Shown one piece after another: positions 1-25,028 of a stretch of DNA of 27,328 bases (within the stretch, counting starts at the first letter, position 1; every line of letters begins with the position of its first letter). This stretch comes from a virus. The position numbers and the translations under genes were made by a program. The stretch lies in IMG/VR virus record IMGVR_UViG_3300027970_000116, positions 1 through 27,328 of that record; one strand, written 5' to 3'. The notes below the pieces were generated by a model that was not told the DNA's origin, did not search any database, and was given only the letters and a program-made list of their open reading frames with translations.

Positions 1-131
1 ACGCTCAGATCCAGGATGGCGGCATCGAGGGAGGCGATCTGCTCCGGAATGGCAGCGAGGACGGCGGTCTGGGTGCGGGTCTCTTCGAGGTGCAGGCGCA
101 GTCCCTTGCCGACCTGCGCGACCTGTCGCCA
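1..131 (-). CDS. Partial coiled-coil protein running off the left edge
   Basis: Read on the minus strand, positions 131 to 3 form an open frame of 43 codons. The composition is typical of a coiled coil: charged and alanine/leucine-rich, with stretches such as LHLEETRTQTAVLAAIPEQI. A TAG stop sits just upstream at 134-132, and no ATG or GTG lies in frame, so the beginning is missing, uses a rare start such as CTG, or has been cut off by a rearrangement. The short motif LAAIPE also occurs in the coiled-coil part of the ATPase at the right edge of the window, so the two may be pieces of one gene or of related genes. No catalytic motif is visible and the function is unknown. Confidence 0.3.
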
Positions 132-7683: not shown

Positions 7684-8058
7684 ATGGCATCGATCGTCGA
7701 CATCTGCAATCTGGCCCTGTCCCATCTTGGGGATTCGGCCACGGTGTCCAGCATCGATCCGCCTGAGGGATCGGCCCAGGCGGACCTCTGCGCGCGCTTC
7801 TTCCCGATCGCCTTGGCGAGTCTGTTGGAGGCTCACTCATGGGGGTTTGCGACGCGCCGTGTCGCGCTGGCGCCGCTGGCGATCTCGGCTGATTCCTTCG
7901 GTGCTGCGCTGCCTGGCGGCAGTAACAGTAATCCCATCGTTCAATCTCCGGTGCAATCAATCATTGGTGGCGTCGGTATTACCATTGTTGATCTTGGTAA
8001 TGGAGTCTACCGCATCAATCGTGATACCACGTCTTCAATTGATGGTGGAACGCCATGA
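7684..8058 (+). CDS. Head-tail adaptor, N-terminal part fused to foreign tail (split gene)
   Basis: Residues 1-72 (MASIVDICNLALSHLGD, DPPEGSAQADLCARFFPIAL, LLEAHSWGFATRR, LAPLAISADSF) are the N-terminal part of a podovirus head-tail adaptor of the T7 gp11/BPP-1 type. These proteins are normally about 200 residues and connect portal to nozzle. After SF at 7894-7899 the family pattern stops. A 52-residue extension (73-124) follows, with fibre-like stretches such as VGITIVDLGNGVYRINRD in AT-richer DNA. The missing C-terminal part is found at 11016-11435. AGGGGG at 7673-7678 is the ribosome-binding site and could be hidden by a hairpin. The stop overlaps the next start (ATGA). Either the two halves work as separate polypeptides, or a gene from which the cassette has been removed is needed for tail assembly. 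Confidence 0.8.
   Translation: MASIVDICNLALSHLGDSATVSSIDPPEGSAQADLCARFFPIALASLLEAHSWGFATRRVALAPLAISADSFGAALPGGSNSNPIVQSPVQSIIGGVGITIVDLGNGVYRINRDTTSSIDGGTP
7894..7900 (+). repeat. Left copy of 7-bp direct repeat bounding the inserted cassette
   Basis: TCCTTCG encodes the SF of the N-terminal adaptor piece, in frame. It is identical to 11022-11028. Confidence 0.6.
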
Positions 8059-9500
8059 TTTCCACGTCGCTAAGCCGATGGTTGCTGACGTTATGTTTTA
8101 TCTGGTTGGTGCTTTCTGAACCGGCATGGGGCGAGACGATCATACTGCGTCGCGGCCTTGCCGCCACCTGGGCCGCGTCGAATCCAATCCTGGCGGCCGG
8201 CGAACCAGGGTATGCCACCGACACCAGCGCCCTAAAGATCGGCGATGGGATGAGGAATTGGAGCGCGTTACCCGTTTATGGCAGCGGCGGCGGGGCAGGC
8301 ACTTGGGGGAGTATCACCGGGACGCTGACCGCGCAACTGGACCTGGCGGCGGCCCTGGCTGGGCTGGCGCCTATCGCCCATACCCAGGCGTGGAGTTCCA
8401 TCACGCTGACGCCAACCACGCTTCAGGGCTATGGCATCGCGGACGCGGTGGCATCAACCGATGCGCGGCTGAGCGATGCGCGGACCCCAACGGCGCATCA
8501 GCACGCGGGCATCGACATCACCTCCGGCCTGGTCGGAGCGGCGCGGCTGGGCAGCGGGACGGCTGACGCATCGACCTATCTGCGCGGCGATCAGACCTGG
8601 GCGAGCGTCGCCGGCGGGGGCGCCACGCAGGCGTTCGGGACCCTGGCAGTCTCTGGCCAAACCTCTGGCCAAACGAATATCGTGGCAGATGCCGCTCCCG
8701 ATACTTTGACCTTGGTGGCTGGAACCAACGTCCAAATCACGACCGATCCCGTGGCCGACGGGCTCACGGTGTCCGCGGTGCACAACCACACCGGGATCTA
8801 CGATCCGAGCGGGACCGCGGCAAGCGCGGTCGCTGCTCATGCCGGTACCGGCGGCACGGCACACGCGAACGCCATCGCGGCGGGTGCGGCGGGGTTCATG
8901 ACCGGGGCCGACAAGACGAAACTGGATGGCATTGCCGCGGGCGCCACAGTGGAGGGCGCAACGGGAGATGCCTTTGCCACCTCGCACCTGTCGGCCTTCA
9001 ACCATGCCCTGATCGCGTCCGCGCTCCAGCCGGCGGCCGTTGGCGTCTCGGTGCAGGGGTATTCCGCAGCGTTGACGACCTGGGCGGGGACCTCGCCCGC
9101 GGCGTTCGCGACCGCCGCCCAGGGCATTGATGCCCGAACGCCGACTAGTCATTCGGCTACTCACGCCTTAGGGGGCGCCGATCCGGCCCTGCTCGCCGGT
9201 ACCTATGCCCTGACCGATTTAGGCAACATCGGCGATGCGACGCTGCCCGCCAACGGCACCGTTTACACCGGCACCGTTACGACCTCGGGCACGTTGACGA
9301 TCTCAAGGCCGGCGGCGGGGGTGCGGGTGACAACGCTCTTTCTGAGCGGCGATGGGACCCATGAGCTTGCGGTAGGCGGGGTCCAGAAGTGGCCCGGCGG
9401 CACTCCGTTCGGCCTCAAGCCGGCGATCGGCGAGTTGTGGCCGATCACCATCATCTGTGCGCCTACCTGGTGCACCATCTCCACCCGGAGTTATTACTGA
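8055..9500 (+). CDS. Tail-fibre-like protein with Mtd-type N-terminal domain and apparent signal peptide
   Basis: This is a 481-residue protein. Residues 1-26 look like a signal peptide: Arg8, a hydrophobic run WLLTLCFIWLVLS, and a possible cleavage site after AWG. Residues 27-76 match the major tropism determinant N-terminal pattern (ETIILRRGLAATWAASNP, LAAGEPGYATDT, KIGDGMRNWSALP), normally at the very start of fibre proteins. The middle has phage fibre repeats, including LQGYGIADAV, DARLSDARTPTAH, TYLRGDQTWASV and GFMTGADKTKLDGIAAGA. The C-terminus is a beta-rich segment ending RSYY. An in-frame tandem repeat SGQTSGQT occurs near 8651-8674. It probably binds a surface receptor or forms a fibre stem; the secretion signal is odd for a virion protein. 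A later GTG start inside the hydrophobic run is an alternative. Start and stop overlap both neighbours. Confidence 0.75.
   Translation: MISTSLSRWLLTLCFIWLVLSEPAWGETIILRRGLAATWAASNPILAAGEPGYATDTSALKIGDGMRNWSALPVYGSGGGAGTWGSITGTLTAQLDLAAALAGLAPIAHTQAWSSITLTPTTLQGYGIADAVASTDARLSDARTPTAHQHAGIDITSGLVGAARLGSGTADASTYLRGDQTWASVAGGGATQAFGTLAVSGQTSGQTNIVADAAPDTLTLVAGTNVQITTDPVADGLTVSAVHNHTGIYDPSGTAASAVAAHAGTGGTAHANAIAAGAAGFMTGADKTKLDGIAAGATVEGATGDAFATSHLSAFNHALIASALQPAAVGVSVQGYSAALTTWAGTSPAAFATAAQGIDARTPTSHSATHALGGADPALLAGTYALTDLGNIGDATLPANGTVYTGTVTTSGTLTISRPAAGVRVTTLFLSGDGTHELAVGGVQKWPGGTPFGLKPAIGELWPITIICAPTWCTISTRSYY
8651..8674 (+). repeat. 12-bp tandem repeat inside the fibre-like gene
   Basis: CTCTGGCCAAAC is repeated twice in frame, giving SGQTSGQT. 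It is probably a recent slippage duplication in a repeat-rich stem. Confidence 0.6.
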
Positions 9501-10258
9501 TGCGCAAGCGCACGCTGATCCTGGGGCTGGTCGCGGCCTGGGCCGCGGTGACTGGCGGGCTGGAACTGCCGCGCGTCGCGCAGGCGATGTACGGCCGCGC
9601 CGCGCCGCATCCGGCGCCGGTCGCGCGCATCACGGTCCGGGCCCCTGCCACCGTGCACCGGGCCGGGGCGCTGTGCGGGGATGGCGCCGATTGCCGGCGC
9701 AATCCGCACTGGCCGGCGTGGCCGCCGGGGGTGCCGGCCCCGGGGCGTGAGTCGGCGGTGCTGGTCGGCGACCTGCTGGGCAGCGGCAACCTGGTGTGGA
9801 GCGCCCGCGAGGCCACTTTCAGCGGCGATGTCATTAATGAGGCCGGTGGCAACCTCACGCTGGAAATTGAGTCTGGGCTGATTCAGACGCTGGCAGGGTC
9901 CAATACCTACACCGGCACGACCGCGGTCCGCACCGGCGGGACCTTAGTCGCCAGTTGGCTCGCTTCCATGGGGGTGGAGATTGAGACGCACGCGCGCGTG
10001 TATTTGACGGCCGCGTGGATGCCAGCGGCGGATACGGTGCTGACCTTCGGCGCCGGGGCGCCGGCCGGCCTGCTGGTGTGCGCCGGGACCCTCACGGCCC
10101 CCGCGGGCGGGCTGGTGACGGTGACCGGTACGCCGTCGATACTGCCGCAGCGGCTGATTGTCGCGACGGCGCTCACAGGTAGCTGGACCGCCGGCGACTT
10201 GCCGGCGGGCACCCATCTGGAACAGGGCGCTGCCGATCTGTGGTTGGTCAGCAACTGA
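9500..10258 (+). CDS. Secreted autotransporter-repeat protein
   Basis: This 252-residue protein starts at ATG 9500 with GGAG at 9487-9490. The N-terminus is a clear signal peptide: MRKR, a hydrophobic run (LILGLVAAWAAVTGG), and VAQA before residue 30. An arginine/proline-rich linker contains two cysteines (60, 65). The stretch AGSNTYTGTTAVRTGGTLVA (about 132-151) matches the passenger-associated repeat of autotransporter beta-helices, flanked by beta-strand-rich sequence (FSGDVINEAGGNLTLEIESG; GTLTAPAGGLVTVTGTPS). The autotransporter barrel is absent. A secreted or virion-associated beta-helix that helps the upstream fibre is possible; so is a surface protein affecting infection of the lysogen. 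The role is unknown. Confidence 0.6.
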   Translation: MRKRTLILGLVAAWAAVTGGLELPRVAQAMYGRAAPHPAPVARITVRAPATVHRAGALCGDGADCRRNPHWPAWPPGVPAPGRESAVLVGDLLGSGNLVWSAREATFSGDVINEAGGNLTLEIESGLIQTLAGSNTYTGTTAVRTGGTLVASWLASMGVEIETHARVYLTAAWMPAADTVLTFGAGAPAGLLVCAGTLTAPAGGLVTVTGTPSILPQRLIVATALTGSWTAGDLPAGTHLEQGAADLWLVSN

Positions 10259-11019
10259 TGGCGCCGCTGCTCTATCGGCTGGTGGGTGAGTCCCTGGAGC
10301 CGCTCGAACTCCATCATGTAGTGCACGTCGCTGGCCGTTACAGCGTATCGGTTGCCGGCCTGCTGTCGCGCCTGGGTGAAGGAATGCTGAGCGTCGCTGA
10401 CGCGGCGGCGTCCGGCCTGCTGCTGCCGGAGCCCAACCCGGCCCCCGCCCCCTGGGGCGCGGTGCCAACCCTGGGGCAGGACGCCCAGGGGCGCGCCTGC
10501 GTGGTGCTGGTGCCGCGGCCCGCGCCGCCGCCCCCGGAGCCGCCGCCCGCGCCGGAGCCGCCGCCCCAGCTTACGCTGCCGGTGGCGGTCGAGGCCCTGG
10601 AAGCGGCCTATGCCGCGCGGCTGGCCCAGGGCTGGTGGTACGAGCATGACCTGGGCCAGGGCGCGCAGTGGTATCTGTACGCCGGGCTGCCGGCGGATAC
10701 CCGCGCGCTGCTGGCCGGCGCGGTGCTGGTGGCCCAGCGGCGGGTGGCGGCCGGGGCGGCGGACGCCTTCCAGTATCGCTGCATCGCGGCGGCCGAGGTC
10801 GCCGCGGGCTGGCCGCCAGTGCTGCGCACGCACACGCTCGCCCAACTGCAGGCGGTGATGGACGCCGGGGCTACGCTGCTCGGGATCGCGGGCCAGATCT
10901 ACGATGTGGCCCGGGCACAGATGGATGCGGCGCTCGACCAGATAGAGTTGGAGTCTGCATTGGGTAACGCAGAGGTTACCTTGGCGGGCGCCTGTCTGCC
11001 CCCTGTGAGTGAGCCATGA
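10258..11019 (+). CDS. Proline-rich protein of unknown function in the fibre cassette
   Basis: This 253-residue protein starts in the stop of the previous gene (TGATG). The N-terminus (MAPLLYRLVGESLEPLELHH; then RYSVSVAGLLSRLGEGMLSV) is unassigned. Residues 60-110 are proline-rich (PEPNPAPAPWG; PPPPEPPPAPEPPPQ). The C-terminal half is helical (VAVEALEAAYAARLAQGWWY; HTLAQLQAVMDAGATLLGI; YDVARAQMDAALDQIE). The end loosely resembles the DUF4376-type domain found in fibre assembly proteins, but this is only pattern similarity. As the last gene of the cassette, a chaperone or adaptor for the fibre is a reasonable guess. Its stop overlaps the start of the C-terminal adaptor piece (ATGA). Confidence 0.55.
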   Translation: MAPLLYRLVGESLEPLELHHVVHVAGRYSVSVAGLLSRLGEGMLSVADAAASGLLLPEPNPAPAPWGAVPTLGQDAQGRACVVLVPRPAPPPPEPPPAPEPPPQLTLPVAVEALEAAYAARLAQGWWYEHDLGQGAQWYLYAGLPADTRALLAGAVLVAQRRVAAGAADAFQYRCIAAAEVAAGWPPVLRTHTLAQLQAVMDAGATLLGIAGQIYDVARAQMDAALDQIELESALGNAEVTLAGACLPPVSEP

Positions 11020-11435
11020 CATCCTTCGACTACGCCTACGCCGCACCGGCCGATGCCGTCAATATCCTGGCCATCTTGCCGCCGGGGGCTACCGACGATT
11101 ACCAGATGGCAGGCTTTCCCGTGCCGGTCCCCTTCTCGCAAGAGATCGGCGACGACGGAATGCCCCTGATTTACACCGACCAGGCGGCGGCCGTGTGTCG
11201 GTATGTGGCCTACGTGAACGATCCTGCGCGCTTTAGTCCGTTGTTCACGATGGCCTTGTCTTGGCACCTGGCGGGATTCCTTGCCGGGCCGCTACTCAAG
11301 GGGACGGCGGGGGCTGCGATGGTCAAACACTGCACGGCGATGATGCAACAGTACCTCGCTCAGGCGGTAGCGTCAGACAGCAATCAGGGGCCGGTAAATC
11401 GCGCCTTTGTCCCATCCTTGATTTCCAGGCGTTAA
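11016..11435 (+). CDS. Head-tail adaptor, C-terminal part (split gene)
   Basis: This 139-residue protein starts at ATG 11016, which lies inside the inserted cassette and overlaps the previous stop. From residue 3 (SFDYAYAAPADAVNILAILP, then PGATDDYQ) it matches the C-terminal two-thirds of the adaptor family. It includes FSQEIGDDGMPLIYTDQAAA, VCRYVAYVNDPARFSPLF and SWHLAGFLAGPLLKG. The sequence lacks the N-terminal helices found in the frame at 7684. Together the pieces cover the whole family with no missing central part. It ends 4 bases before the nozzle gene. It is well preserved, with no stops or frameshifts, so it is probably made and functional as a separate chain. Confidence 0.85.
   Translation: MTSFDYAYAAPADAVNILAILPPGATDDYQMAGFPVPVPFSQEIGDDGMPLIYTDQAAAVCRYVAYVNDPARFSPLFTMALSWHLAGFLAGPLLKGTAGAAMVKHCTAMMQQYLAQAVASDSNQGPVNRAFVPSLISRR
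11022..11028 (+). repeat. Right copy of 7-bp direct repeat bounding the inserted cassette
   Basis: TCCTTCG is identical to 7894-7900 and is in the same codon phase. It may be a target-site duplication or the microhomology used for insertion. Confidence 0.6.
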
Positions 11436-11439
11436 AGCC

Positions 11440-13494
11440 ATGGGCAGCGTCCGAACCATTCAGCGCTCGTTCGGTGGAGGCGAGGTCTCGCCGGAACTGT
11501 GGGGGCGCTCCGACGACTCCAGTTATGCGTCCGGCCTGGCTACCTGTCGCAACTTCGTCACCAAGGTCCAAGGTCCGGCCGAGAACCGGGCCGGGTTTGA
11601 GTTCGTCTGTGAAGTGAAGGATTCAACCAAAGCGGTGCGCCTGATCCCGTTCACCTATTCTTCAACCCAAACCATGGTGATTGAGATTGGGGCCGGATAT
11701 TTCCGCTTCCATACCCAGGGCGCTACGCTGATGGATGGCGACGTGCCCTATGAGATTGCCAACGCCTTCGCGGAATCTGATCTGTTTGATATCCACTATG
11801 TGCAGTCCTCGGATGTGATGACACTGGTTCATCCGCTGCACCCACCGGCGGAACTGCGCCGACTCGGGGCGCTCAACTGGCAATTGATTAGCGTTAGTTT
11901 CGGTACTTCGCTCGTGCCTCCGGGTAACGTCATTTTGACACCGGTCGGAGTTCCGACGGGGGTGGGCCTTTATCTTTATCGATATGTCATCACGACGGAA
12001 TCGCTTGATCGCCTCAACGAGTCGCGGCCGAGCGGAGAAATTGCGTGCGCCAACAATCTTGGGTATACCGGGTCCAGGAATGAGCTAGTCTGGTCTTTTG
12101 TCGCGCCGAATATCTATTACAACATCTATAAAGAGATGGGTGGGTTATATGGCTTTATCGGCCAGACGGCGGAACTGGCGTTCATCGACGCCAACATTTC
12201 ACCTGACCTGAGTAAAACCCCGCCGCTTCGTGATTATGCACTCACAAAAGTCAACAACTACCCGGCGGCCGTGTCCTACTTCGAGCAACGCCGGTGTTTT
12301 GCCGGGACGCTGAATAAGCCGCAAAACCTGTGGATGACGCAATCAGGAACGGAGTCCGGAATGTCATACTCATTACCGACGCGCAACGATGATCGTATTT
12401 CTGTAAGGGTCGCCGCGCGTGAGGCCAACATCATCAGGCACATCGTGCCCCTGAGTCAGTTGTTGTTGCTGACCAGCGCCGCGGAATGGCGCGTCGGCTC
12501 GGTTAATTCCGATGCTATTACCCCGGCATCAATCAACGTCAGCCCGCAGTCTTATGTCGGCGCGTCAAACGTCCAGCCGTGCATTGTCAACAACTCACTG
12601 GTCTATGCGGTAGCGCGCGGCGGGCACATGAGAGAGTTGGCCTATTCCTGGCAATCCAGCGGATTCACCGGCGGCGATCTGTCGCTACGCGCGGGGCATC
12701 TGTTCGACGGGCTGAACATCATCGACATGGCCTATGCCAAGGCCCCGATTCCGCTGGTGTGGTGCGTCTCCTCCGGCGGCAACCTGCTGGGGCTGACCTA
12801 TGTCCCGGAGCAACAGGTAGGCGCCTGGCACCGGCACGACACCGACGGGGCCTTTGAGTCGGTTGCCGTGGTCGCCGAGGGCCTTGAGGACGTGCTTTAC
12901 GCCGTGGTGGCCAGAACCATCAACGGCACCGCGGTGCGCTACATCGAGCGGATGGCGTCGCGGCGCTTCGCCACCCCGGCGGACGCCTTCTTTGTCGACT
13001 GCGGCCTTACCTACCGCGGAGCCCCGGCGGTCCGCATCAGCGGCCTGGACTACATCGAGGGAAAGACCGTCAACATCCTCACGGACGGTGCGCCGCATCC
13101 GCAGCGGGTTGTCAACGGCGGGGCGGTCACGCTCGACTATCCCGCCGCAGTGGTCACCGTGGGGCTGCCGATCGTGGCGGACCTGCAAACGCTCCCCATG
13201 GCCGTGCAGGTTGACAGCGCCTTGGGGCAGGGGCGGGCGAAGTCGGTCAACCGCGTGTGGTTGCGGGTCTGGCGATCGTCCGGGATCTGGGTGGGGCCCG
13301 ACGCGGATCACCTGGTGGAGTCCAAGCAGCGCACCACAGAGCCTTTCGGGTCACCGCCCGCGCTCAAAAGTGCCGAGGTCGAGGTGGTCCTGTCCGCCAC
13401 GTGGGCACAGGATGGGCAGATATTCATCCGGCAACGCGACCCGTTGCCGCTGACGGTGGCATCGCTGGCGGCCGAAGTGGCCTTGGGGGGATAG
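11440..13494 (+). CDS. Tail nozzle protein (T7 gp12-like / stabilisation protein)
   Basis: This 684-residue, beta-rich protein follows the adaptor directly. The N-terminus (IQRSFGGGEVSPELWGRSDD, then YASGLATCRNFVTKVQGPAE and NRAGFEFV) is the conserved start of podovirus nozzle proteins. Later segments (RRCFAGTLNKPQNLWMTQSG; LLLLTSAAEWRVGS; YVPEQQVGAWHRHDTDGAFE) match the same family. Six copies form the narrow tube below the adaptor through which DNA and ejection proteins leave. The length fits the family. DNA around 11890-12560 is AT-richer than the ends of the gene, so this part may have recombined. The ATG overlaps nothing and lies 4 bases after the adaptor stop. Confidence 0.88.
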   Translation: MGSVRTIQRSFGGGEVSPELWGRSDDSSYASGLATCRNFVTKVQGPAENRAGFEFVCEVKDSTKAVRLIPFTYSSTQTMVIEIGAGYFRFHTQGATLMDGDVPYEIANAFAESDLFDIHYVQSSDVMTLVHPLHPPAELRRLGALNWQLISVSFGTSLVPPGNVILTPVGVPTGVGLYLYRYVITTESLDRLNESRPSGEIACANNLGYTGSRNELVWSFVAPNIYYNIYKEMGGLYGFIGQTAELAFIDANISPDLSKTPPLRDYALTKVNNYPAAVSYFEQRRCFAGTLNKPQNLWMTQSGTESGMSYSLPTRNDDRISVRVAAREANIIRHIVPLSQLLLLTSAAEWRVGSVNSDAITPASINVSPQSYVGASNVQPCIVNNSLVYAVARGGHMRELAYSWQSSGFTGGDLSLRAGHLFDGLNIIDMAYAKAPIPLVWCVSSGGNLLGLTYVPEQQVGAWHRHDTDGAFESVAVVAEGLEDVLYAVVARTINGTAVRYIERMASRRFATPADAFFVDCGLTYRGAPAVRISGLDYIEGKTVNILTDGAPHPQRVVNGGAVTLDYPAAVVTVGLPIVADLQTLPMAVQVDSALGQGRAKSVNRVWLRVWRSSGIWVGPDADHLVESKQRTTEPFGSPPALKSAEVEVVLSATWAQDGQIFIRQRDPLPLTVASLAAEVALGG

Positions 13495-14244
13495 ATGGGT
13501 TACGGCGGTGTGGTATCCAGTGTCCTGGGGGCGGTTTCATCTGCCCAAGGGGCGCTCAGTTCCGCGAAGACCACGCAGGCCAACCTGCGCTTGCAGGCGA
13601 TCGAATCCGACGCCCAGGCCACCTACGCCAAGACGCAAGCGGCCATGGCCAGGGCCAATGCCGGATTGGTCCGGGCGACCGGCAACGTCAATGCGCAGAT
13701 GGCGACCCTGACCGGGGAGACGAACGCCCGCACCGCCGAAGCCGCAGCGGCGAACGCCCTGGAAATCGGGCAAGACCAGGTGGCCGCCCTGACCCTAAAG
13801 GCAGGCCAACTCAAGGGGGCGCAGCGGGTTGCACTGGCGGCCAACGGAATCGCCATCAACGAGGGCAGCGCGCGCGAGGTACAGGCCAGCACCGACGTGC
13901 TGAAGCAGGCCGACATGGACACCCTCACCGCCAATGCCGCCCGGTCAGCCTGGGGGTATCGCACGCAAGCCGCGAACGATCGGACCGCGGCCGACTGGCA
14001 GGCGCTCAACTACCAGAACAACGCGGCGAACGAGGCGCGCAACCTCGACCAAGGGGCACAGATGCAAGGGATCACGGCCGCGAGCTACGAGCGCTCGGCC
14101 GGCTCCCAGTTGGCGACCGCCAGGGCGATCAGTCCCAACCTGGCGGCGGCCACATCACTGCTCGGGAGCGCGGGCAGCGTGGCATCGTCCTGGTACCGCT
14201 ACAGGAAGGAAATACAGGACAGTAAGAAGGAGAAAAAGCCGTGA
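13495..14244 (+). CDS. Internal virion (ejection) protein, gp14-like
   Basis: This 249-residue alanine-rich helical protein starts directly after the nozzle stop, with GGGGGGA just upstream. The central stretch (LEIGQDQVAALTLKAGQLKG, AQRVALAANGIAINEGSARE, VLKQADMDTLTANAARSAWG) is typical of T7 gp14-type core proteins of podoviruses. These are ejected into the host envelope and form part of the DNA channel. A glycine/alanine-rich segment near the C-terminus (SLLGSAGSVASSW) could insert in a membrane. A basic tail (KKEKKP) follows. It overlaps the GTG start of the next ejection protein. Confidence 0.82.
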   Translation: MGYGGVVSSVLGAVSSAQGALSSAKTTQANLRLQAIESDAQATYAKTQAAMARANAGLVRATGNVNAQMATLTGETNARTAEAAAANALEIGQDQVAALTLKAGQLKGAQRVALAANGIAINEGSAREVQASTDVLKQADMDTLTANAARSAWGYRTQAANDRTAADWQALNYQNNAANEARNLDQGAQMQGITAASYERSAGSQLATARAISPNLAAATSLLGSAGSVASSWYRYRKEIQDSKKEKKP

Positions 14245-16487
14245 GAGTCCCTGAGTATGGCGGCTTCCAGGCCCAGACATCGGCGGCGCCTCAGCCCCAG
14301 ATGACCGCACCGAAACTGACCGACACGCCGTTCACTGCCACTGCGCCCCGGATGGAGATTACCCCACAGCACGACATCGCGGGCGCGCAGGCCGGGGCCC
14401 TGGGGCAAGCAGCCGCGAATCTCGGGCAACATCTGAGCGCCATCGGTACCGACATGGCGCACGAGGCCAATCAGTATCGGTTGGCGGACGCAACGAATCA
14501 GGCGCAGGTGCACATCCAGGACCTGACCTACGATCCGAAGACGGGCTACACCAGCCTGCAGGGCAAGGACGCGCTGGAGCGGCCCGACGGCAAGCCCCTG
14601 GCCGATGAGTACGGCGCCAAGCTCAAGGGCAAGCTCGACGAGATCGCCGGCACCCTGGGCAACGACGCGCAGCGCCGGGCCTTCGCCCAGACCTCGGCCA
14701 ACCTCATGGCGCAGTTCCACGGGCAGGCCCTGGCGCACGAGGCGCAGCAGTTCAAGGTCTACAAGCAGAGCGTCACCAGTGGCACGGTGGACACCGCGGC
14801 GCGTCAGATTGGGCTGGGGTGGTCTGATCCCGCTATCACGGATGAGTCGATCGGCAGGATTGCCGCGGCGACCCGCATCCAGTACGCAGGGATGGACCCG
14901 ACGTTCGTAATGGCCAAGACCATCGAGGCCGTAAGCCCGGCGGCCAAGCTCGCCATCGAAAGCGCCCTCGACAACCATCAACCCGACATGGCGGCGGCCT
15001 ACCTGAACCGCTACTCGCAGTTCATGGGCGAAGACGACATCTACACGACGAACCTGCGCATCACCAAGGCGAAGGACGCCCAGGCGGCGCTCGGGGCCGC
15101 GGCCGACGTTATGCAGTCATCGCAGCCGGCCACACCGCTCGATCATCTGTTCGACGCGCTGTTGTGGTCGGAGTCCAGGAAACAGCACTTCGGCCCCGAT
15201 GGGCGCCCGACCACCAGCCCCAAGGGGGCGATCGGGATTGCACAAATCATGCCTGCTACCGGCCCGGAGGCGGCCAGGCTCGCGGGGGTGGACTGGGACC
15301 CGGAGCTATTCAACCGCGGGAGCACCGGCGACCCGGCCAAGGACGCCGCAGCGCAGGCCTACAACCTGAAGCTCGGCCGGGCCTACTTCAGCAACCAGTT
15401 GTCCCAGGCGGGCGGGGACCCGGCGAAGATGCTCGCCGCCTACAACGCCGGGCCGGGCAGCGCCAAGAAGGGCACCGGGCTGGCCGGGGCGATGCGCAAG
15501 GCGGCGGATGCCGGTCAGCCGGACGCCTGGTTGAACTACACCCCCCAGGAAACGCAGGACTACGTGAAGAACACCCTGGCGCGCGCCAAGTCGGCGCAGG
15601 ACAGCCCCGCGGCGCGGCCCACGCTGGAAGACCACTATGCCCGGTTGCAGGCCCATCCAAGCGTTGCCGGCAGCCCCGAGCGACTGAAGCTCGCGCAGAG
15701 CGAAATCGACGGGCAGGTGTCCCGGCAGACCGCGGCCATCAAGCAGCGCGAGGCGGAAGGCGTTACCGCGGCCATGCGCGAACTGGAGCAGAACGGCGGA
15801 AGCCTGGCCGGCCTCTCGGGGAACGCCGTGGCGGGTATCCCCGCGGGGCGGATGGGCGAGATCAAGGACTATGCCGCCAAGCTCGCCAAGGGCGTGCCGG
15901 TGGAAACCGACATGGCCCTCTATGGGCATCTGACCGCGAACCCTGATGAGTTGGCGAAAAAGTCGGATGCGGAGTTCGGCGCCCTGTCGGCGAAGATCGC
16001 CAAGGGCGATTTGGCGGTGCTCGCGGCCAAGCGCGCCAAGGCCCTGAACCCGACGGCGACCGCGGTCACCAACCCGGGCGAACTGAATTCGCCTGCCATC
16101 AAGAGCGGTTTGGATGAGCGGCTGCGGATGCTCGGCATGGACCCCACCCCGAAAGATGACAGCCCTGACGCCGGGCGGGTCGGGGCCATCCGGCAGTTCG
16201 TCGATCGTTCGATGCTGGATGCGCAGGCGCAGGGCGGCAAGAAGTTCACGGATGCGGAAGTCAACGCGCACCTGGACCGACTGTTCGCGCAGAACGCCGT
16301 CACTCCCGGCGGCTGGTTCTCGGCCGACACCTCGGGGCCGATGCTCGCGCAGAAGGTCAGTGACATCCCCAGCGAAGCGCGCAATGGCATCAAGGCGGCC
16401 TTCGTTAAGGCGGGGGTATCGAACCCAACGGACGGGCAAATCATCACCGCCTACTGGACGGCGATGACAAAGCGGGGCGGACGATGA
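14241..16487 (+). CDS. Ejection protein with lytic transglycosylase domain
   Basis: This 748-residue protein starts with GTG at 14241 (AAGGAG at 14227-14232) and overlaps the previous stop. Residues about 300-410 form a soluble lytic transglycosylase (SLT) domain. The catalytic glutamate is E311 in LLWSESR, followed by GAIGIAQIMPATGPEAARLA (about 329-348) and the substrate-groove motif AAYNAGPG (399-406). The rest is helical, as in internal core proteins of T7-like phages (gp15/gp16 roles). The enzyme would cut peptidoglycan locally so that the ejection channel can cross the cell wall. The next gene starts in its stop (ATGA). Confidence 0.88.
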   Translation: MRVPEYGGFQAQTSAAPQPQMTAPKLTDTPFTATAPRMEITPQHDIAGAQAGALGQAAANLGQHLSAIGTDMAHEANQYRLADATNQAQVHIQDLTYDPKTGYTSLQGKDALERPDGKPLADEYGAKLKGKLDEIAGTLGNDAQRRAFAQTSANLMAQFHGQALAHEAQQFKVYKQSVTSGTVDTAARQIGLGWSDPAITDESIGRIAAATRIQYAGMDPTFVMAKTIEAVSPAAKLAIESALDNHQPDMAAAYLNRYSQFMGEDDIYTTNLRITKAKDAQAALGAAADVMQSSQPATPLDHLFDALLWSESRKQHFGPDGRPTTSPKGAIGIAQIMPATGPEAARLAGVDWDPELFNRGSTGDPAKDAAAQAYNLKLGRAYFSNQLSQAGGDPAKMLAAYNAGPGSAKKGTGLAGAMRKAADAGQPDAWLNYTPQETQDYVKNTLARAKSAQDSPAARPTLEDHYARLQAHPSVAGSPERLKLAQSEIDGQVSRQTAAIKQREAEGVTAAMRELEQNGGSLAGLSGNAVAGIPAGRMGEIKDYAAKLAKGVPVETDMALYGHLTANPDELAKKSDAEFGALSAKIAKGDLAVLAAKRAKALNPTATAVTNPGELNSPAIKSGLDERLRMLGMDPTPKDDSPDAGRVGAIRQFVDRSMLDAQAQGGKKFTDAEVNAHLDRLFAQNAVTPGGWFSADTSGPMLAQKVSDIPSEARNGIKAAFVKAGVSNPTDGQIITAYWTAMTKRGGR

Positions 16488-19400
16488 GCGAGTGGGACGA
16501 CGCGGTAAGCGCGACGATGGGGGCGGCGGCGCCGGTATCGCCGGCGCTCGATGCACAGCCCCCCGGGGCGGCGACAGCCCCTGGTCAGGCCCCAAGCCAA
16601 GCCCCCGACTGGGATGCCGCCGTTGCCGCGTCAATCCAGCCTCAGGCCACTCCCGCCCGCGCCGGCTACCTGGCGGCCCAGGGCACCAACCCCGACCAGT
16701 ACGCCGCCGCACAGGACCTGGCCCGCCGGCTCGGGGTCCCGGTGCAGACCGCCATGGGCGCCGAAGGCGAAGGGCTCAAGCGCAAGCTGGCGATGGGCGA
16801 GATCGACTTCGACAAGATCGCCCGCGAGCAACCGGCGACGAACAACCGGCTGGCTAACCCCGACCAGGCGAAGCTCATGCACGACGACGTGCACACCCTC
16901 ACCGGGGTGGAACAGGCCGTGCAGCCGACCAAGGGCCTCCTCGCGGACATCGCCGGAATGCCGATGGAGTTCGCGCGGGGTTCCGGCGGCGCGACCACGC
17001 GCGCGGCGGCGGCCCTCAACACCGTGCTTGGCGCCTTCCCCGTCGTGGCCGACGCCACGGCCAACCTGTTCGGCGCCAAGACCACGGCGGCCGAAGACTG
17101 GTGGTTCTCCAACATGGTCGCGCCGACGGTCGCGCGCCAACCGCTGTTCGCCCCGGCCCCCGACGCCGGATTCCTCGGCAAGGCGGCCAACACCGCCGGC
17201 TCACTGCTCGGGGTCCTGTCGCAGATCGTGCTGAGCGGCGGCGGCGGGGCGGCCGTGCCCTTGTCCGGGACGGCCGCGGCGGGCATCGTCCCGGCGGCTG
17301 AAGCCACGGCGGCCGACGTCATCGCGGGCGCGGTCGCGCACGGGTCCAAGGCCATGCTGTTCCCGGCCCTGACCGATGCGGTCAACACCGCGCGCGAGGT
17401 CCACGGCGCGACCGGTGATCCCTGGGCGGCGGCGCGCGCGGCGCAGGTGCAGTATCTTGCCACCACGGGTATGGGCGTCCTGCCGATGTCGGTGCCGGGC
17501 GGCCTGGTCAAGCGGATGGCGTCCGGCGCGCTCTCGGGCATGACGGCGGGCGAGGCCTCGCGGGCCGCGATGAATCTTGCGCTCCCCGTCCAGATGCAAC
17601 AGCCGTTCACCGGTGAGGGCCTGGCCCTGTCCGCCCTGGCTGGTTCGGTCCTGGCGCTTGGCGGTCCCCGGGGGGAGGTCAAGGGCTATCAAGATGCCGT
17701 GCGGCGCACCTACACCGCGGCGGCCAAGGCGCAGCAGGCACAGGCCGACGCGGCGCGGCTCGGGACCCTCGGGCAACTCTCCGCGGCCAGCAAGTACCGG
17801 GAGCGCGATCCCGCGGCCTTTCACCAGTTCGTGCAGGATGCGGGCGAGGGCGGCGGGCTCAAGGAGGTCTATGTGGACGTGGCCACCCTGGGCGAGGTCC
17901 TGCATCAGGCCGGCGTCGACCGGGCGGCCCTGGCGGCCAAGCTCCCCGACCTGGAAGCCCAGATCCATGAGGCCGAGCAGACCGCGGGCATGGTCCGCAT
18001 CCCGGTGGCAGACTACGCCACCCACATTGCCGGCGGGCCGGTCGATGCCGCGCTGCTGCCGCATCTGCGCACCGACCCGGACGGGATGACCTTCAGCGAG
18101 GCGACCGCCTTCCACCAAGGCCAGGTCGAGTTGTTCACCCGAGAGGCCGACCGGGTGTTGGCGCAGCACGAGTCCGACACCGCGTGGAAGACCTCCAGCA
18201 ACGAGGTACGCGACCACATCGCCGAGCAGTTGACGGCCACCGGGCGCTTTACGGCTGATGTGGTGCGGGTCTACGCCGACCTGCATCAGGCCTTCTTCGA
18301 GGTCCTGGCGGACCGGATGCGCACCACACCGGACGCGGCCTACGCCCAGTTTGGGGCGCGGATCGTGGCCGAGTCGCTGGGCGGCCGCGGGCTTCACCAG
18401 CCGGAGGGCGAGAGTGCCACGGCACCGGAACAGCCGCGGGTGGGTCCGTTCGGGCCGATCCTTACAGAGCATGTGCACGACGCCCAGGGGGCCGTTGCCA
18501 AGCTCATGGAGATGAAGACCGGCGAGGCGGTAGGGGCGCTACATCACCCGGAGATAGGGGACATTGATCTGGTGTGGGGCCAAGAGGGGACCGGTCATCA
18601 CGACGGCTATGGCCTGTCAAAAATCGTTGCTTGGCACCCCGAGGTGGTCAACAACTTGCAGTCGATAATTTCAGGGATGCGGGTTACGAAGCGCAGCGCA
18701 AATCGGGCTCAACTGGAGTCGGAAAGCCACCAAGGAGCCGTTCGGCTTCAGTGGGACGGACAGTCAAAGCATTGGTTGTTAACTGCTTTCGAGAAAGGTA
18801 AGGAGGGGGACGGAAGCGGCGCCGAACCGAGGACAGACACGCCCGGCACTGGTAAGAAAGGTGACTCGCTTTCTCTCGCTCCCGCATCAATTGTAGAGCA
18901 GCAGATCAGTAAGTTCTACCAGAAGACCGGTGCCCCCCGCGGCGCCTACGACCCGGCAACCCGCACCATCGCCCTCCTGAAAGACGCCGACCTGACCACC
19001 TTCACCCATGAGTCGGGCCACTTCTTCCTCGACACCTACGCCAAGCTCGCGGCCCTGGCCGACGCCCCGGCCGGGGTCCGGGCGGACGTTGACGCCCTGC
19101 TGCGCTGGTTCGGCATCGAGGGCGCGCCCGAGTTGTCGGCCCTGGACGCCTGGCACCTGATGGACCTGGACGCGCAGCGTGCCCATCACGAGACCTTTGC
19201 CCGCGGCTTCGAGCAGTACCTGTTCGAGGGCAAGGCCCCGAGCGTCGAACTCAACGGGGTCTTCGGTCGCATCCGCTCATGGATGGTGCGCGTCTACCAG
19301 AGACTCGAGGCCCTGGGCGCCCCGCTCACTGCCGAGGTGCGGCAGGTCTTCGGCCGGATGCTGGCGAGCGAGGATGCCATCAAGACCGCCGAGCACGCGC

Positions 19401-22400
19401 GCGGCTATGCCGAACTGTTCAGAACCCCAGAGGACGCGGCGCGGCTCGGGATCGACCCGGCCGAGTACCGGGCCTATCAGGAGCAGGGCCGGGAGGCGAC
19501 CGCGGATGCGGTGGGCGATCTGCAAGCGCGGGCCGTGCGTGACCTGCGCTGGCTCACCAACGCCCGCAACAAGGCCCTGGCCCAGGTGCAGCGGGAGGCG
19601 CGCGGACTGCGGCAGGCGGCCCAGATGGACGCCCGGCGCGAGGTCATGTCGCAGCCGGTCTATCGGGCGTGGCAGTTCCTCACCAGCAAGCTGGGGGTCG
19701 ACGACAAGTTGCCGTCTGCTGAGCGGCCCAAGTCCGATCCAAAGACCCTGGACCCGGCCGCCCTCAATGCCGGGCGCCTGGATGAGGGCGCCCTTCACGA
19801 GGTCCTGGTGGAGAGCGCCGCGACCCCGGAAGACGGCGCGCGCATCGCCGCCCGGTTGGCGGCTGAGAAGATGATCGGCACGGGCGGGATGCACCCTGAC
19901 ATCGTGGCCGACCTGTACGGGTTCGACTCCGGTTCTGACCTGGTGCGGGCCCTGGCCGATGCCGCGCCCCCCAAGGCGGCCATCGAGGCGGCAACCGACC
20001 GGCTCATGCTGGAGCGCCACGGCGACGTAGCCACCCCCCAGGCCATGGCGCGGGCGGCCGAGGAGGCGATCCACAGCGATGCGCGGGCGCGCGTCATGGC
20101 GACCGGCATGAAGCTGCTGGGCAAGCTGGCCGGACCGGCGCGCGAGATCGCCCGGGCGGCCAAGGAAGCGGCAGAGGCGGCCATCGGCGCCAAAAGGGTT
20201 CGGGATCTGCGCCCCCTGCAGTACACCGCGGCCGAAGGCAAGGCCGGCCGGGCTCTGCTCAAGGCCATCGAGAAGGGCGACATCCCGCGGGCGGCACAGT
20301 TGCAGCGGGCGCAGTTGCTCAACAACCGGCTGGCCCGGGCGGCGGGGGAGGCATCAAAGGAGGTTGGCGGACTGCTCGCGCAGTGGGGCCGGTTCTCGCG
20401 TCGCGCCGATGACCGGCTAAAAGGGTCCTATGACATGGACCTGGTGAACGCGGTGCGGTCGATCCTCGGGCAATACGGCGTGGCACCAATCCAGGCCAAG
20501 AAGGCCGGCGAGTACCTGGGCGTGCTGGAACGCGAGGACCCCGACACCTACGCCACCGTCGCCGCGGCGGTACAGCGCGCAGAGGCCGGCGCCAAGCCGT
20601 TCCAGCAGATGACGGTCGATGAGGTGCGCGGCCTGGCGGCCGACGTGGACGCGCTCCTGCACCTGGCGCGGCGCTCCCGGCAGGTAGAGACCGACGCGGG
20701 CCGGATGGCGCTCGATCGCGTGAAAGACCACCTCGTGGGGCGCCTTGAGGACATCGGGATTCCTGATCGCGTACCCGGCGAGGGCCACGCGGTGACGCCC
20801 GGCGAAGAACGGATGGCGCAGTTCCGCACAGCCCTGGCGTGGGTGACGCGGGCCGAGGCGTGGGTGGGACGGATGGACGGGGCTCAAGCCATGGGGCCGT
20901 TCCGCCGCTTCCTGTTCAACCGCATCAAGGACGGCGCAGACGCCTACCGCCGGGACAAGGGGATCTACCTGAAGGAATACCGGGATCTGCTTGACCGGGT
21001 TGCGCCGACGCTGACGGGCGGGAAGATCGCGGCGCCTGAACTGGGTTACCGCTTCGGCGAGGCGCAGAAGAATTCTGCGATCCCCGAGATACTGCACGCC
21101 ATCCTGCACACCGGCAACGAGTCGAACGCGCGCAAGCTGCTGCTCGGCCGCGGCTGGGGGGAAGAACGCCCAGACGGCACGCTGGACCGCTCCCGGTGGG
21201 ATGCCTTCATCGCGCGCATGATCGCAGAGGGCAAGATCACCAAGGACCATTTCGACTTCGCGCAAGGCGTCTGGGACCTGTTGGAGCGCCTGAAGCCGGC
21301 GGCGCAGCAGGCGCACCGCGACGCCTATGGGCGCTATTTCGCTGAGGTCACCGCCGACCCGGTAGCAACCCCGTTCGGGGAGTACCGGGGCGGGTACGTG
21401 CCGGCCAAGACTGATCCGCGCGTCGTCAAGGATGCGGCGCTGCGTGAACTTCTCGACAAGGAAAATGCGGGGATGGCCTACGCCTTCCCGGCGACATCCA
21501 AGGGGTTCACCAAGGGGCGCGTCGAGTACAACAAGCCCTTGCTGCTGGACCTGCGCTCGCTCGCCCAGCACATCGACCAGGTGTTGCTGTTCTCGCATCT
21601 CGACAACCCGGTGCGCGACACCCAGCGGATTATCCGCGCGATCGGCGGTCCGCTGGAGCGGGTCCAGCCCGGCGTCGTGTCAGGGATGCTCATCCCCTGG
21701 CTGAACCGCACCGCCAAGCAGCAGGTGGTAACGCCCGTCAGCCATGATGCGGGGATGTCGCGGTTTTTCACGGTGCTGCGGTCGCGGGCCGGGGCCGCGG
21801 CGATGTTCGGCAACATCTCGAACGCGCTGCAGCAGGTGTCCGGATTTGGCCTTGCCGCGCTCAAGGTCCCCCCGGGTCACTTGCTGTCGGCCATGGTCGA
21901 TTATGCGAAACATCCCCGTAAGCTGGCCGCGGCGGTAGCTGATGCCTCTATTTACATGAAGGATCGGCTTGACAGTGACACCATGAGCATGAGCGATGAC
22001 ATCAGGCAAATACTGATGAACCCGTCAGTCTTGGCGCGCGCGCAAGATTGGACGCTGCGCCATGCTTACTTCATGCAACTGGCCGTTGATAGCGTAATGA
22101 GCCCGGTAGTATGGACGGGCGCCTATAACCATGCTATTGCTAAAAGCATGAGTCATGCCGATGCGGTACGCCTGGCCGACTCAGCGGTGCGCGAAACCCA
22201 AGGCAGTTTCCTCCCGGAAGACGTGAGCCGGATCGAAGCGGTAAACGCTTTTACCAGGCTGTTCACCCAGTTTGCCGGCTACTTCAACACCTGGGCCAAC
22301 CTGCTTGGCACCGAATTCTCTAAGGTCACCCACGAGGCGGGGCTGGCGCAGCAATACCAGCGCGGTTTCTATGTCTTCATGGTGGGCTATCTGGCCCCCG

Positions 22401-22873
22401 CGGTGGTCGCCGAATTGGTGACTCAAGTATTTCGTGGCGGACCGCATGATAATAACGACGATGGAAGTTATCTTGATGACTGGTTGCGGCAATTATTCGT
22501 AATTGGACCCGTGCGCAGCGCAACCGCGATGATCCCAATCGGCGGGTCAGCCATCAACGCGGGTGTTAATACTTGGAATAGCAAGCCCTATGATGATCGC
22601 ATCGCCACCTCACCGGCAATCTCAATGATTGAGGCGACGGTAAGAGCGCCGGTATCGGCCTATGACGCTATCGTGAATGGCAAGAGCGGCCAGAAGGCCA
22701 TCCGCGACGTGGCCACCTTGATATCTCTGACGATCGGGGTCCCTCTTACGTTGCCCGCGCGGCCGGTCGGTTATCTCGCGGACGTGGCCGGCGGGAAAAT
22801 CCGCCCGTCCGGCCCCGTTGATCTTGCCCGCGGCGTCGTAACGGGGATCGCCAGTCCGGGCAGCAAGGACTAA
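16484..22873 (+). CDS. Giant ejection protein with PBECR-type nuclease and metallopeptidase motifs
   Basis: This 2129-residue protein is the largest gene and probably the gp16-like ejection protein. Residues 1-60 are proline/alanine-rich. Residues about 160-400 are glycine/alanine-rich and partly hydrophobic. About 656-772 match the phage barnase/EndoU/colicin/RelE-like (PBECR) nuclease pattern: GDIDLVWGQEG, GYGLSKIVAWHPEVVNNLQ, AVRLQWDG, KHWLLTAFEK. This part (about 18540-18900) is AT-richer than its flanks. At 842-846 is HESGH, a zinc metallopeptidase HExxH motif, followed by HETFARGFEQYLFEG with E903 as a possible third ligand. This pair is common in large phage polyvalent proteins. The long middle is helical and the C-terminal 380 residues have hydrophobic helices (VFMVGYLAPAVVAELV). 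It would be injected with DNA and could act in the host envelope or cytoplasm. Catalysis is inferred from motifs only. Confidence 0.82.
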   Translation: MSEWDDAVSATMGAAAPVSPALDAQPPGAATAPGQAPSQAPDWDAAVAASIQPQATPARAGYLAAQGTNPDQYAAAQDLARRLGVPVQTAMGAEGEGLKRKLAMGEIDFDKIAREQPATNNRLANPDQAKLMHDDVHTLTGVEQAVQPTKGLLADIAGMPMEFARGSGGATTRAAAALNTVLGAFPVVADATANLFGAKTTAAEDWWFSNMVAPTVARQPLFAPAPDAGFLGKAANTAGSLLGVLSQIVLSGGGGAAVPLSGTAAAGIVPAAEATAADVIAGAVAHGSKAMLFPALTDAVNTAREVHGATGDPWAAARAAQVQYLATTGMGVLPMSVPGGLVKRMASGALSGMTAGEASRAAMNLALPVQMQQPFTGEGLALSALAGSVLALGGPRGEVKGYQDAVRRTYTAAAKAQQAQADAARLGTLGQLSAASKYRERDPAAFHQFVQDAGEGGGLKEVYVDVATLGEVLHQAGVDRAALAAKLPDLEAQIHEAEQTAGMVRIPVADYATHIAGGPVDAALLPHLRTDPDGMTFSEATAFHQGQVELFTREADRVLAQHESDTAWKTSSNEVRDHIAEQLTATGRFTADVVRVYADLHQAFFEVLADRMRTTPDAAYAQFGARIVAESLGGRGLHQPEGESATAPEQPRVGPFGPILTEHVHDAQGAVAKLMEMKTGEAVGALHHPEIGDIDLVWGQEGTGHHDGYGLSKIVAWHPEVVNNLQSIISGMRVTKRSANRAQLESESHQGAVRLQWDGQSKHWLLTAFEKGKEGDGSGAEPRTDTPGTGKKGDSLSLAPASIVEQQISKFYQKTGAPRGAYDPATRTIALLKDADLTTFTHESGHFFLDTYAKLAALADAPAGVRADVDALLRWFGIEGAPELSALDAWHLMDLDAQRAHHETFARGFEQYLFEGKAPSVELNGVFGRIRSWMVRVYQRLEALGAPLTAEVRQVFGRMLASEDAIKTAEHARGYAELFRTPEDAARLGIDPAEYRAYQEQGREATADAVGDLQARAVRDLRWLTNARNKALAQVQREARGLRQAAQMDARREVMSQPVYRAWQFLTSKLGVDDKLPSAERPKSDPKTLDPAALNAGRLDEGALHEVLVESAATPEDGARIAARLAAEKMIGTGGMHPDIVADLYGFDSGSDLVRALADAAPPKAAIEAATDRLMLERHGDVATPQAMARAAEEAIHSDARARVMATGMKLLGKLAGPAREIARAAKEAAEAAIGAKRVRDLRPLQYTAAEGKAGRALLKAIEKGDIPRAAQLQRAQLLNNRLARAAGEASKEVGGLLAQWGRFSRRADDRLKGSYDMDLVNAVRSILGQYGVAPIQAKKAGEYLGVLEREDPDTYATVAAAVQRAEAGAKPFQQMTVDEVRGLAADVDALLHLARRSRQVETDAGRMALDRVKDHLVGRLEDIGIPDRVPGEGHAVTPGEERMAQFRTALAWVTRAEAWVGRMDGAQAMGPFRRFLFNRIKDGADAYRRDKGIYLKEYRDLLDRVAPTLTGGKIAAPELGYRFGEAQKNSAIPEILHAILHTGNESNARKLLLGRGWGEERPDGTLDRSRWDAFIARMIAEGKITKDHFDFAQGVWDLLERLKPAAQQAHRDAYGRYFAEVTADPVATPFGEYRGGYVPAKTDPRVVKDAALRELLDKENAGMAYAFPATSKGFTKGRVEYNKPLLLDLRSLAQHIDQVLLFSHLDNPVRDTQRIIRAIGGPLERVQPGVVSGMLIPWLNRTAKQQVVTPVSHDAGMSRFFTVLRSRAGAAAMFGNISNALQQVSGFGLAALKVPPGHLLSAMVDYAKHPRKLAAAVADASIYMKDRLDSDTMSMSDDIRQILMNPSVLARAQDWTLRHAYFMQLAVDSVMSPVVWTGAYNHAIAKSMSHADAVRLADSAVRETQGSFLPEDVSRIEAVNAFTRLFTQFAGYFNTWANLLGTEFSKVTHEAGLAQQYQRGFYVFMVGYLAPAVVAELVTQVFRGGPHDNNDDGSYLDDWLRQLFVIGPVRSATAMIPIGGSAINAGVNTWNSKPYDDRIATSPAISMIEATVRAPVSAYDAIVNGKSGQKAIRDVATLISLTIGVPLTLPARPVGYLADVAGGKIRPSGPVDLARGVVTGIASPGSKD

Positions 22874-22905
22874 GTGCGCGTACTGACGCCCCGCGGCGCT
22901 ATCAT
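22874..22905 (+). promoter_or_regulatory. Candidate phage promoter (motif copy 2)
   Basis: Directly after the TAA of the giant gene is GTGCGCGTACTG, followed by TATCAT at 22900-22905, which resembles a sigma-70 -10 box. It mirrors the motif after the terminase stop at 2451. The gap of 62 bases before the fibre gene is the longest in the rightward block, and fibre genes often have their own promoter. The role is inferred. Confidence 0.45.
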
Positions 22906-22935
22906 GTCCACAACCAAACCGGAGCGCCCCGCCCC

Positions 22936-23703
22936 ATGACGATTGCCGCGACCCTGCGCAAGGCCGGACCCTATGACGGCACCGGTGTGCGGACTCTGTT
23001 CCCGTTCCTCTTCAAGGTGTTCGTCGCGTCTGACCTGCTGGTCATCCGCACCGATGCCGCCGGCACCGAGTTCACGCTGGTGTTGGACCACGACTACACC
23101 GTCTCTCTGTCGCAGGATCAGGACGCCAACCCGGGCGGGTTTGTGATACTCACCGAAGCCGCAGCAGTCGGCGAGTTGGTGACCCTCACCAGCGCCGTGC
23201 CCTACATCCAGCCGCTACAGTTGACCAATTCGGGGGGATTTTACCCAAGCGTCATCAACGCGGCCTTCGATCGCGTGTGTATGCAGATTCAACAACTCGC
23301 TGAGCAATCTGCCAGAACCTTCAAGGTTCCTATTTCGTCGGTTCCTGCCGCCGTGTTTTCGATCATGGAGTATCTCAATGCGTCAAGTATTGCCGCCACT
23401 CTCGCCAATACCGCCGCGGTCAATGCTGGGATCTCTGCGGAGGGCGCCCGGCGATACTATGAAGCAACCATGGCGGCAGCGGAGACAGCACTGGGGTTGC
23501 GGGAGCCGGTAGACCTGGCGATTGCCTATATCGACTTGCACTCCGTGCCGCGGATAACCTTCGAGGCCATGTATACCGCCGGCGGGTGGAACATGGGCGG
23601 GCTTCCCGGTGCTGGTCTGGCGTTCAGTAGCGAACGCGGCGCTTCCCGCGCGGCCAGCTTCGCATTTGGCACCTCTACGATTGATCTTGGTGCGCCAACT
23701 TAG
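22936..23703 (+). CDS. Tail fibre/spike anchoring protein
   Basis: This 255-residue protein begins with the T7 gp17-like tail-attachment domain seen in many podovirus fibres: TIAATLRKAGPYDGTGVRTL, FPFLFKVF, LVLDHDYTVSLSQDQDANPG, and FYPSVINAAFDRVCMQIQQL. A helical region rich in alanine (about 150-185) follows, then a short glycine-rich end (GWNMGGLPGAGLAF). It lacks a large receptor-binding domain, so it probably anchors the next protein to the tail. GGAG at 22920-22923 is its ribosome-binding site, rather far from the ATG (12 bases). Confidence 0.82.
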   Translation: MTIAATLRKAGPYDGTGVRTLFPFLFKVFVASDLLVIRTDAAGTEFTLVLDHDYTVSLSQDQDANPGGFVILTEAAAVGELVTLTSAVPYIQPLQLTNSGGFYPSVINAAFDRVCMQIQQLAEQSARTFKVPISSVPAAVFSIMEYLNASSIAATLANTAAVNAGISAEGARRYYEATMAAAETALGLREPVDLAIAYIDLHSVPRITFEAMYTAGGWNMGGLPGAGLAFSSERGASRAASFAFGTSTIDLGAPT

Positions 23704-23712
23704 GTAACAAAT

Positions 23713-24693: not shown

Positions 24694-25028
24694 TGGATCT
24701 TGCAGAAGAACGCAGAGCAAACCCAACCTGCGCCGAAGAGGTTTCGCTCATACGTCACCAGGTGAATGCCTTAGTCGACGAAATAAACGCTGACCGTATC
24801 TGGCGTGATACTCATGAAAGAGAAAGCGCTGTCTGGCGTGATACTCATGAAAGAGAAAGCGCTGATTTGATGGCAATGCAGCATGAAATACAGTCGCTGA
24901 TTGATGCTCTTGGATGGATGCGTACCACGGTTCGCATTGTCAAATGGGGGGGCGGCGCACTATTGGCCTTGCTGCTGTTGTTCAATGAAGCGATCCCGTG
25001 GCTCGACAAGATTAATTGGCGGAAATGA
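24693..25028 (+). CDS. Membrane protein of the lysis region
   Basis: This 111-residue protein has a charged helical N-terminal part (about 1-75) and one transmembrane segment near the C-terminus (VRIVKWGGGALLALLLLFNE, about 80-99), followed by a short basic end. Residues 37-58 are a tandem repeat (WRDTHERESA twice). Just before the endolysin, it could be a holin, antiholin or spanin-like protein, and the layout resembles small XhlA-type proteins. I cannot assign it firmly. It overlaps the fibre stop and the endolysin start. Confidence 0.65.
   Translation: MDLAEERRANPTCAEEVSLIRHQVNALVDEINADRIWRDTHERESAVWRDTHERESADLMAMQHEIQSLIDALGWMRTTVRIVKWGGGALLALLLLFNEAIPWLDKINWRK
24799..24864 (+). repeat. 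Exact 33-bp tandem duplication
   Basis: The unit starting TCTGGCGTGATACTCATGAA repeats exactly with a 33-base period (24799-24831 and 24832-24864). It duplicates 11 residues in frame in the membrane protein. Exact identity suggests a recent event. Confidence 0.95.

Follow-up and report, generated by a model that had tools for sequence, protein, structure and literature searches.

A head-tail adaptor gene in two open frames, parted by a module with a fibre-like gene, in a BPP-1-like virus

The closest described counterparts of the locus reported here are the split genes of T4-like phages. According to excerpts of PMC2988022, nrdA of phage Aeh1 is split by mobE and is fully functional, topoisomerase gene 60 of T4 is split by mobA, and the products of genes 43A and 43B of phage 25 co-purify with polymerase activity. 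They also describe inserted genes whose start and stop codons overlap. Our locus concerns a virion protein, the head-tail adaptor (PHROG 394, Bbp14 family), a ring protein that joins head to tail. It lies in a virus record of 27,328 bases (IMGVR_UViG_3300027970_000116), the whole of which was analyzed and is called the window below. In this virus, an insert with a fibre-like gene divides what was ancestrally a single adaptor frame into two open ones; the gene is unsplit in relatives.

Gene order in the window resembles that of Bordetella phage BPP-1: portal (Pfam Head-tail_con), GP7-type capsid protein, Bbp16, a Bbp15-like small gene, adaptor, nozzle, and internal proteins. As in BPP-1, the adaptor locus has the Bbp15-like gene on one side and the nozzle gene on the other, and two of its proteins match PHROG 394. 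The protein encoded at 7684-8058 aligns with profile positions 1-64 (E 2.4e-18) and that at 11016-11435 with positions 70-188 of 190 (E 1.2e-19), so the matches jointly span nearly the whole family profile. The initial annotation of this DNA had proposed one adaptor in two pieces about 3.1 kb apart, and these matches bear it out. The 11016 protein belongs to the same family rather than a different one and, although intact relatives exist, it is no unrelated look-alike. No second adaptor gene was found with a profile built from 32 intact adaptors, either in the window or in the two other records that match it, IMGVR_UViG_3300028581_000148 (G001) and IMGVR_UViG_3300028571_000191 (G003).

The adaptor now takes up two chains' worth of frames, with the C piece in a different frame behind three genes. 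Once the 3128 bp at 7894-11021 are removed, codons 1-70 (7684-7893) and the 137 codons at 11022-11432 give 207 residues. The intact adaptors of two related loci, L043 and L004, have 207 and 208 residues, and the restoration in frame that had been predicted is thus confirmed. The rejoined stretch of the window, LAPLAISADSFDYAYA, has the same length as LAQLGTAWPEWDYAYA of L004. The ATG of the C piece at 11016 overlaps the TGA (11017-11019) of the preceding gene, c3; its start codon is indeed supplied by the insert, as had been suggested.

The copies of TCCTTCG at the two borders (Table 1) are both read as TCC TTC G, in the equal codon phase that had been claimed for them. This word occurs five times on the + strand of the window (1867, 2356, 6926, 7894, and 11022) and once on the opposite strand (15070). 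Random pairs of zones of such size have a 7-mer in common, in any register, in 5.4% of cases, and homology of at least 7 bp across random junctions arises in 0.1%. Because of these chance figures, the repeat on its own is weak to modest evidence. Jointly, the repeat and the exact length of 207 residues fix the borders well. The repeat would fit either microhomology-mediated recombination or target-site duplication, between which the sequence does not discriminate. A candidate inverted repeat spanning the insert (7830-7858 and 10987-11015, 72% complementary) is one of 317 such pairs in the region and was judged to be due to chance.

Intact relatives are plentiful. In a set of adaptor loci (L001-L120), both halves were found in 55, two of which (L002 and L041) represent the twin record G001. 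In each of the other 53, one frame holds the two halves next to each other, and their aligned parts are -2 to 34 bases apart. The gene encodes at least 185 residues in 110 of 111 relatives readable from start to stop (42 distinct at 95% identity). This count leaves out the window's own virus (L001, L002, and L041), a locus with no N piece (L003), one whose start lies off the contig (L020), and those that run off the contig (L040, L042, L090, and L119). The sole exception, L059 (5919-6164), has a stop after codon 78, with nine bases of contig left. That stop falls slightly beyond the position matching the split site, and it might reflect either another disruption of the gene or an error at the end of the contig.

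Judged by residue conservation, there is no sign of decay in either piece. The N piece retains 20 of 22 conserved columns and the C piece 17 of 18; when each of 23 intact rows was left out in turn, the lowest and highest values were 15 of 23 and 22 of 22 for the N part and 12 of 19 and 18 of 18 for the C part. Relative rates were compared among 13 records of our own choice, two of which (L006 and L007) are identical over their shared part. The C piece is 60, 59, 57, and 50% identical to L007, L004, L008, and BPP-1, respectively, versus 49, 52, 50, and 44% for the intact adaptor of L043. For the N piece, these values are 75, 72, 75, and 66%, versus 65, 65, 65, and 60%. The neighboring nozzle protein gives 69, 68, 62, and 66% for the window and 69, 70, 63, and 68% for L043. 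Both adaptor pieces are thus closer to these four than the L043 adaptor is, at similar nozzle distances. L043 is not a clean sister in this comparison: its capsid gene is the nearest to that of the window (84%), and its nozzle is not (66% versus 69% for L007).

The position of the break was placed on a predicted structure of the intact adaptor of L004, modelled from 32 relatives (predicted local distance difference test score [pLDDT] 85.2, predicted template modelling score [pTM] 0.78). The break maps to L004 residues 66-73, a predicted loop between strands 63-65 and 74-77, where relatives vary in length. In the model, the N piece comprises two helices and the first strands, and the C piece comprises the remainder. 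The model resembles the Carin-1 connector (8ck1_E; Foldseek template modelling scores [TM] 0.85/0.86; Z 22.7, root mean square deviation 3.4, 195 residues), and it also matches an LME-1 phage protein and T7 gp11.

The insert opens with codons fused in frame to the N piece, which become residues 71-124 of its chain. The first two of these are the Ser-Phe of the repeat, and the stretch has no tblastn match among phage records at E values up to 1. Three genes follow, and all junctions of this operon have overlaps of 1 or 4 bases, in the form of ATGA (8055 and 11016) or TGATG (9498 and 10256). The product of c3 has no PHROG hit and no significant Pfam or NCBIfam hit. The family searches of c2 in these three collections began at 9497, one codon early. 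No recombinase or homing endonuclease is among the PHROG, Pfam, and NCBIfam matches of the insert proteins. A search for promoters and terminators gave no promoter-like site and one terminator-like site, versus 2.3 expected; promoter, signal-peptide, and HU-like labels are our own readings rather than family matches. When the N termini of 25 listed frames (one of which, 25425-25581, was read in the wrong frame) were ranked by hydrophobicity, the fibre-like gene came first and c2 second. The term "fibre cassette" in the initial annotation holds for one fibre-like gene, beside which the insert has two further genes and the 54 leading codons.

Table 1. Coordinates of the split adaptor gene, its insert, and the gene that follows
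Feature	Position	Strand	Evidence
Adaptor N piece, codons 1-70	7684..7893	+	PHROG 394 1-64; 74-75% identity over 65 residues to intact adaptors of L043, L007
TCCTTCG, left copy of 7-bp direct repeat, left insert border	7894..7900	+	Sequence; chance test
54 codons and stop fused in frame to adaptor N piece	7894..8058	+	G+C 49.7% versus 60-73% in neighbors
Fibre-like gene, 481 codons, hydrophobic N-terminus	8055..9500	+	Pfam Mtd_N residues 29-65, E 3.7e-13; PHROG structural, tail, hyaluronidase families
c2, signal-peptide-like N-terminus, weak PATR repeat	9500..10258	+	PATR E 3.3e-4, below its cut-off
c3, no assigned family	10258..11019	+	Weak similarity to third gene of Mu-like trio, E 1e-4 (one comparison)
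Adaptor C piece, own ATG overlapping c3 stop, Met-Thr and 137 adaptor residues	11016..11435	+	PHROG 394 70-188; 48% identical to BPP-1 Bbp14
TCCTTCG, right copy of 7-bp direct repeat, right insert border	11022..11028	+	Sequence; chance test
Nozzle (tail protein) gene, usual neighbor after adaptor	11440..13494	+	PHROG 376 E 1.7e-205; BPP-1 order alike

A similar set of three genes, in equal order, is present on a Mu-like phage contig, IMGVR_UViG_3300028581_000327 (L122, L208), from the same IMG sample as G001. The fibre of this trio is 39% identical to the insert fibre over 325 residues (E 1.7e-38), and its c2 is 39% identical over 84 residues (E 1.9e-9). A further locus, L233, equals L208 (100% over 4960 bases), and the two represent two contigs of one Mu-like phage. 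As in the insert, the fibre and c2 of the trio start with hydrophobic segments. The trio differs in that it lies upstream of a Mu-type portal gene and splits no gene as far as the contig is readable, and in that its fibre contains collagen repeats but lacks a Mtd_N hit. Scans with c2 recovered only the window's virus and the two contigs of the Mu-like phage, scans with c3 nothing beyond the window's own virus, and an alignment scan of genome contigs with the fibre nine loci that have only common short stretches. Because a similarly ordered trio is present in a Mu-like phage, the most suitable view of the insert is that of a module passing from one phage to another, unrelated one, although the two copies are distant. 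A block of about 4 kb of extra genes directly upstream of the intact adaptor in L046 (1995-6001) was considered as a second fibre module; in PHROG it matches a head protein and otherwise gives weak hits, and it is not used as support.

Virion fibres are normally assembled in the cytoplasm, and an export-signal-like start on a fibre-like protein is odd for this reason. Signal-peptide-like starts on fibre-like and companion proteins are seen in two unrelated phages (window 8055-9500 and 9500-10258; L122 4978-6993 and 7023-8201). The window also encodes a resident second Mtd_N protein (23713-24693) in the usual tail-fibre region. The insert fibre has no significant BLASTP similarity to this protein, though both carry Mtd_N.

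Some other features of the window stand apart from the adaptor locus. The tblastn alignments of the nozzle with L004, L008, L044, and L047 break near residues 100, 195, or 530, with ~220-380 extra bases between, which suggests variable inserted domains. A protein of 2129 residues (16484-22873) has LPD22 and PBECR1 (nuclease-like) domains, and a 33-base unit is tandemly repeated at 24799-24864, inside a small gene (24693-25028). Window positions 1-128 recur, with one gap, at G003 17699-17827, and positions 105-125 have an inverted copy of 21 bases at G003 17266-17286. Judging from these sequences, the contig end at window positions 1-124 was probably joined wrongly or represents a variant join.

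On balance, we think it probable that a real module insertion has yielded a two-chain adaptor whose chains pair into the ring, a reading based on sequence comparison and structure prediction. The source module would have consisted of the fibre-like gene, its two companions, and the 3' end of whatever preceded them in the source. Its target would have been a site in the adaptor gene of a BPP-1-like podophage that encodes a loop, and the likely route is illegitimate recombination at the 7-bp microhomology or close to it. Because each junction overlaps by 1 or 4 bases, ribosomes finishing c3 could restart on the ATG of the C piece by coupled translation. One chain would then carry residues 1-70 with a 54-residue tail, and the other Met-Thr followed by the last 137 residues. 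The two may pair non-covalently and rebuild each ring subunit, like the known split phage enzymes.

Several points weigh against a working two-chain adaptor. In a limited search of open-access literature, no report of a fibre-like module splitting a virion adaptor came up, and the usual cause of split phage genes, a homing endonuclease, was not found in the insert proteins. Among 398 sampled genomes of one bacterial phylum, 21 PHROG 394 matches in 19 genomes include none in two pieces (one has an internal TGA, and two cover part of the profile). G001 spans both insert borders as a second record, not necessarily as an independent sample. The intact adaptor of L007 is closer to the outgroups than the split one: its C piece is 68, 65, and 62% identical to L004, L008, and BPP-1, and its nozzle is closer too. 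The absence of decay may reflect only a recent insertion. In a model of the C piece by itself, the strands and two helices are present, and these do not take their native arrangement (pTM 0.48; TM 0.42 to 8ck1_E). This result would fit a C piece that depends on the N piece, and it would also fit a poor model.

Other explanations of the arrangement have to be weighed against a functional two-chain adaptor. An assembly chimera, in which two phages are wrongly joined in the contig, appears highly unlikely, because G001 (32,113 bases) carries the same arrangement across both borders; the assembly error that the initial annotation had named as a possible refutation is made unlikely in this way. The match of G001 to window positions 113-26099 (25,987 bases) is identical except for one mismatch (119). 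G003 matches window positions 10525-27328 with three mismatches; it starts inside c3 and thus crosses the right border base-exactly, while the left border is outside its reach. Moreover, the border word of 7 bases is short for joining by an assembler. In favor of a chimera, insert G+C differs, and window bases 1-112 diverge from G001, so that wrong or variant joins at short repeats do occur in assemblies of this virus. A removable cassette, with recombination at the 7-bp repeats restoring the gene in part of the population by phase variation or developmental excision, is very unlikely; removal in part of the population was one of two options offered in the initial annotation. The direct repeat in equal codon phase and a length without the insert equal to that of relatives would suit such a cassette. 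However, no recombinase family is among the insert protein hits, the repeat is only 7 bp, and the exact 30-base uninterrupted site occurs in 0 viral contigs (a collection from which close neighbors of the window may be missing). Nor was any close intact copy found, the nearest relative beyond the window's own virus being 57% identical. Two working chains are preferred over excision because conserved residues are kept, the break lies at a loop site, and start and stop codons overlap. Thus, the earlier interpretation stands as to an adaptor split by a cassette with a fibre-like gene, its option of two chains is the better supported one, and its option of cassette removal is unsupported. Repair at the level of RNA or translation, by which the insert would be spliced out or skipped by the ribosome, is scarcely credible: frame arithmetic favors it and nothing further, whereas the three genes of the insert overlap and the halves do not share a frame. 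Candidate group I and group II introns were rejected on 0 Rfam matches in the window at the gathering threshold, and an intein is ruled out by the stop TGA (8056-8058) and the frame change.

The more serious rival is a non-viable or decaying variant, in which the insertion killed the adaptor and the genome is a defective prophage or depends on a helper; we regard this as unlikely, though less so than the preceding alternatives. Adaptors, as known from T7 gp11 and P22 gp4, should be essential, no virus other than this one showed the split, and a YdaS/Cro-like regulator region suggests a temperate phage able to persist as a prophage. Against it, both halves and the other examined genes are open frames, conserved residues are retained, a start codon is supplied in a coupled position, and a near-identical genome is present in a second and partly in a third record. 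If the phage is dead, the locus is a mere curiosity of recombination. Finally, excerpts of PMC11440229 report that the PhiM1 adaptor contacts the portal and the tail fibres, which makes a fibre module inside an adaptor gene a suggestive coincidence. The adaptor loop might have acted as a docking slot, with the foreign, possibly fibre-derived tail of the N chain anchoring the imported fibre to a two-chain ring. We consider this addition improbable. Were it true, a single recombination event would both have split a virion protein and have plugged in a host-contact module.

If the adaptor does work as two chains, a closed-ring structural part may tolerate being manufactured in this form, and the locus would point to a split site found in nature that could serve engineering or studies of the gain of a fibre beside the adaptor. 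The resemblance to the genes in pieces of T4-like phages is that an insertion turns one phage gene into two open frames. In the systems covered by the excerpts of PMC2988022, enzyme genes are split, and what splits them is a homing endonuclease or an untranslated sequence. The window differs from them in that the insert is a fibre-like module without an endonuclease hit, the divided product is a virion ring protein, and reassembly is only predicted. With the PHROG 394 or tail tubular protein A family (Bbp14, the Carin-1 connector 8ck1, and T7 gp11), the adaptor of the window shares sequence family and gene place, as well as the fold predicted for the intact relative L004. It differs from that family in being encoded as two chains, of which the N chain would carry a foreign tail of 54 residues.

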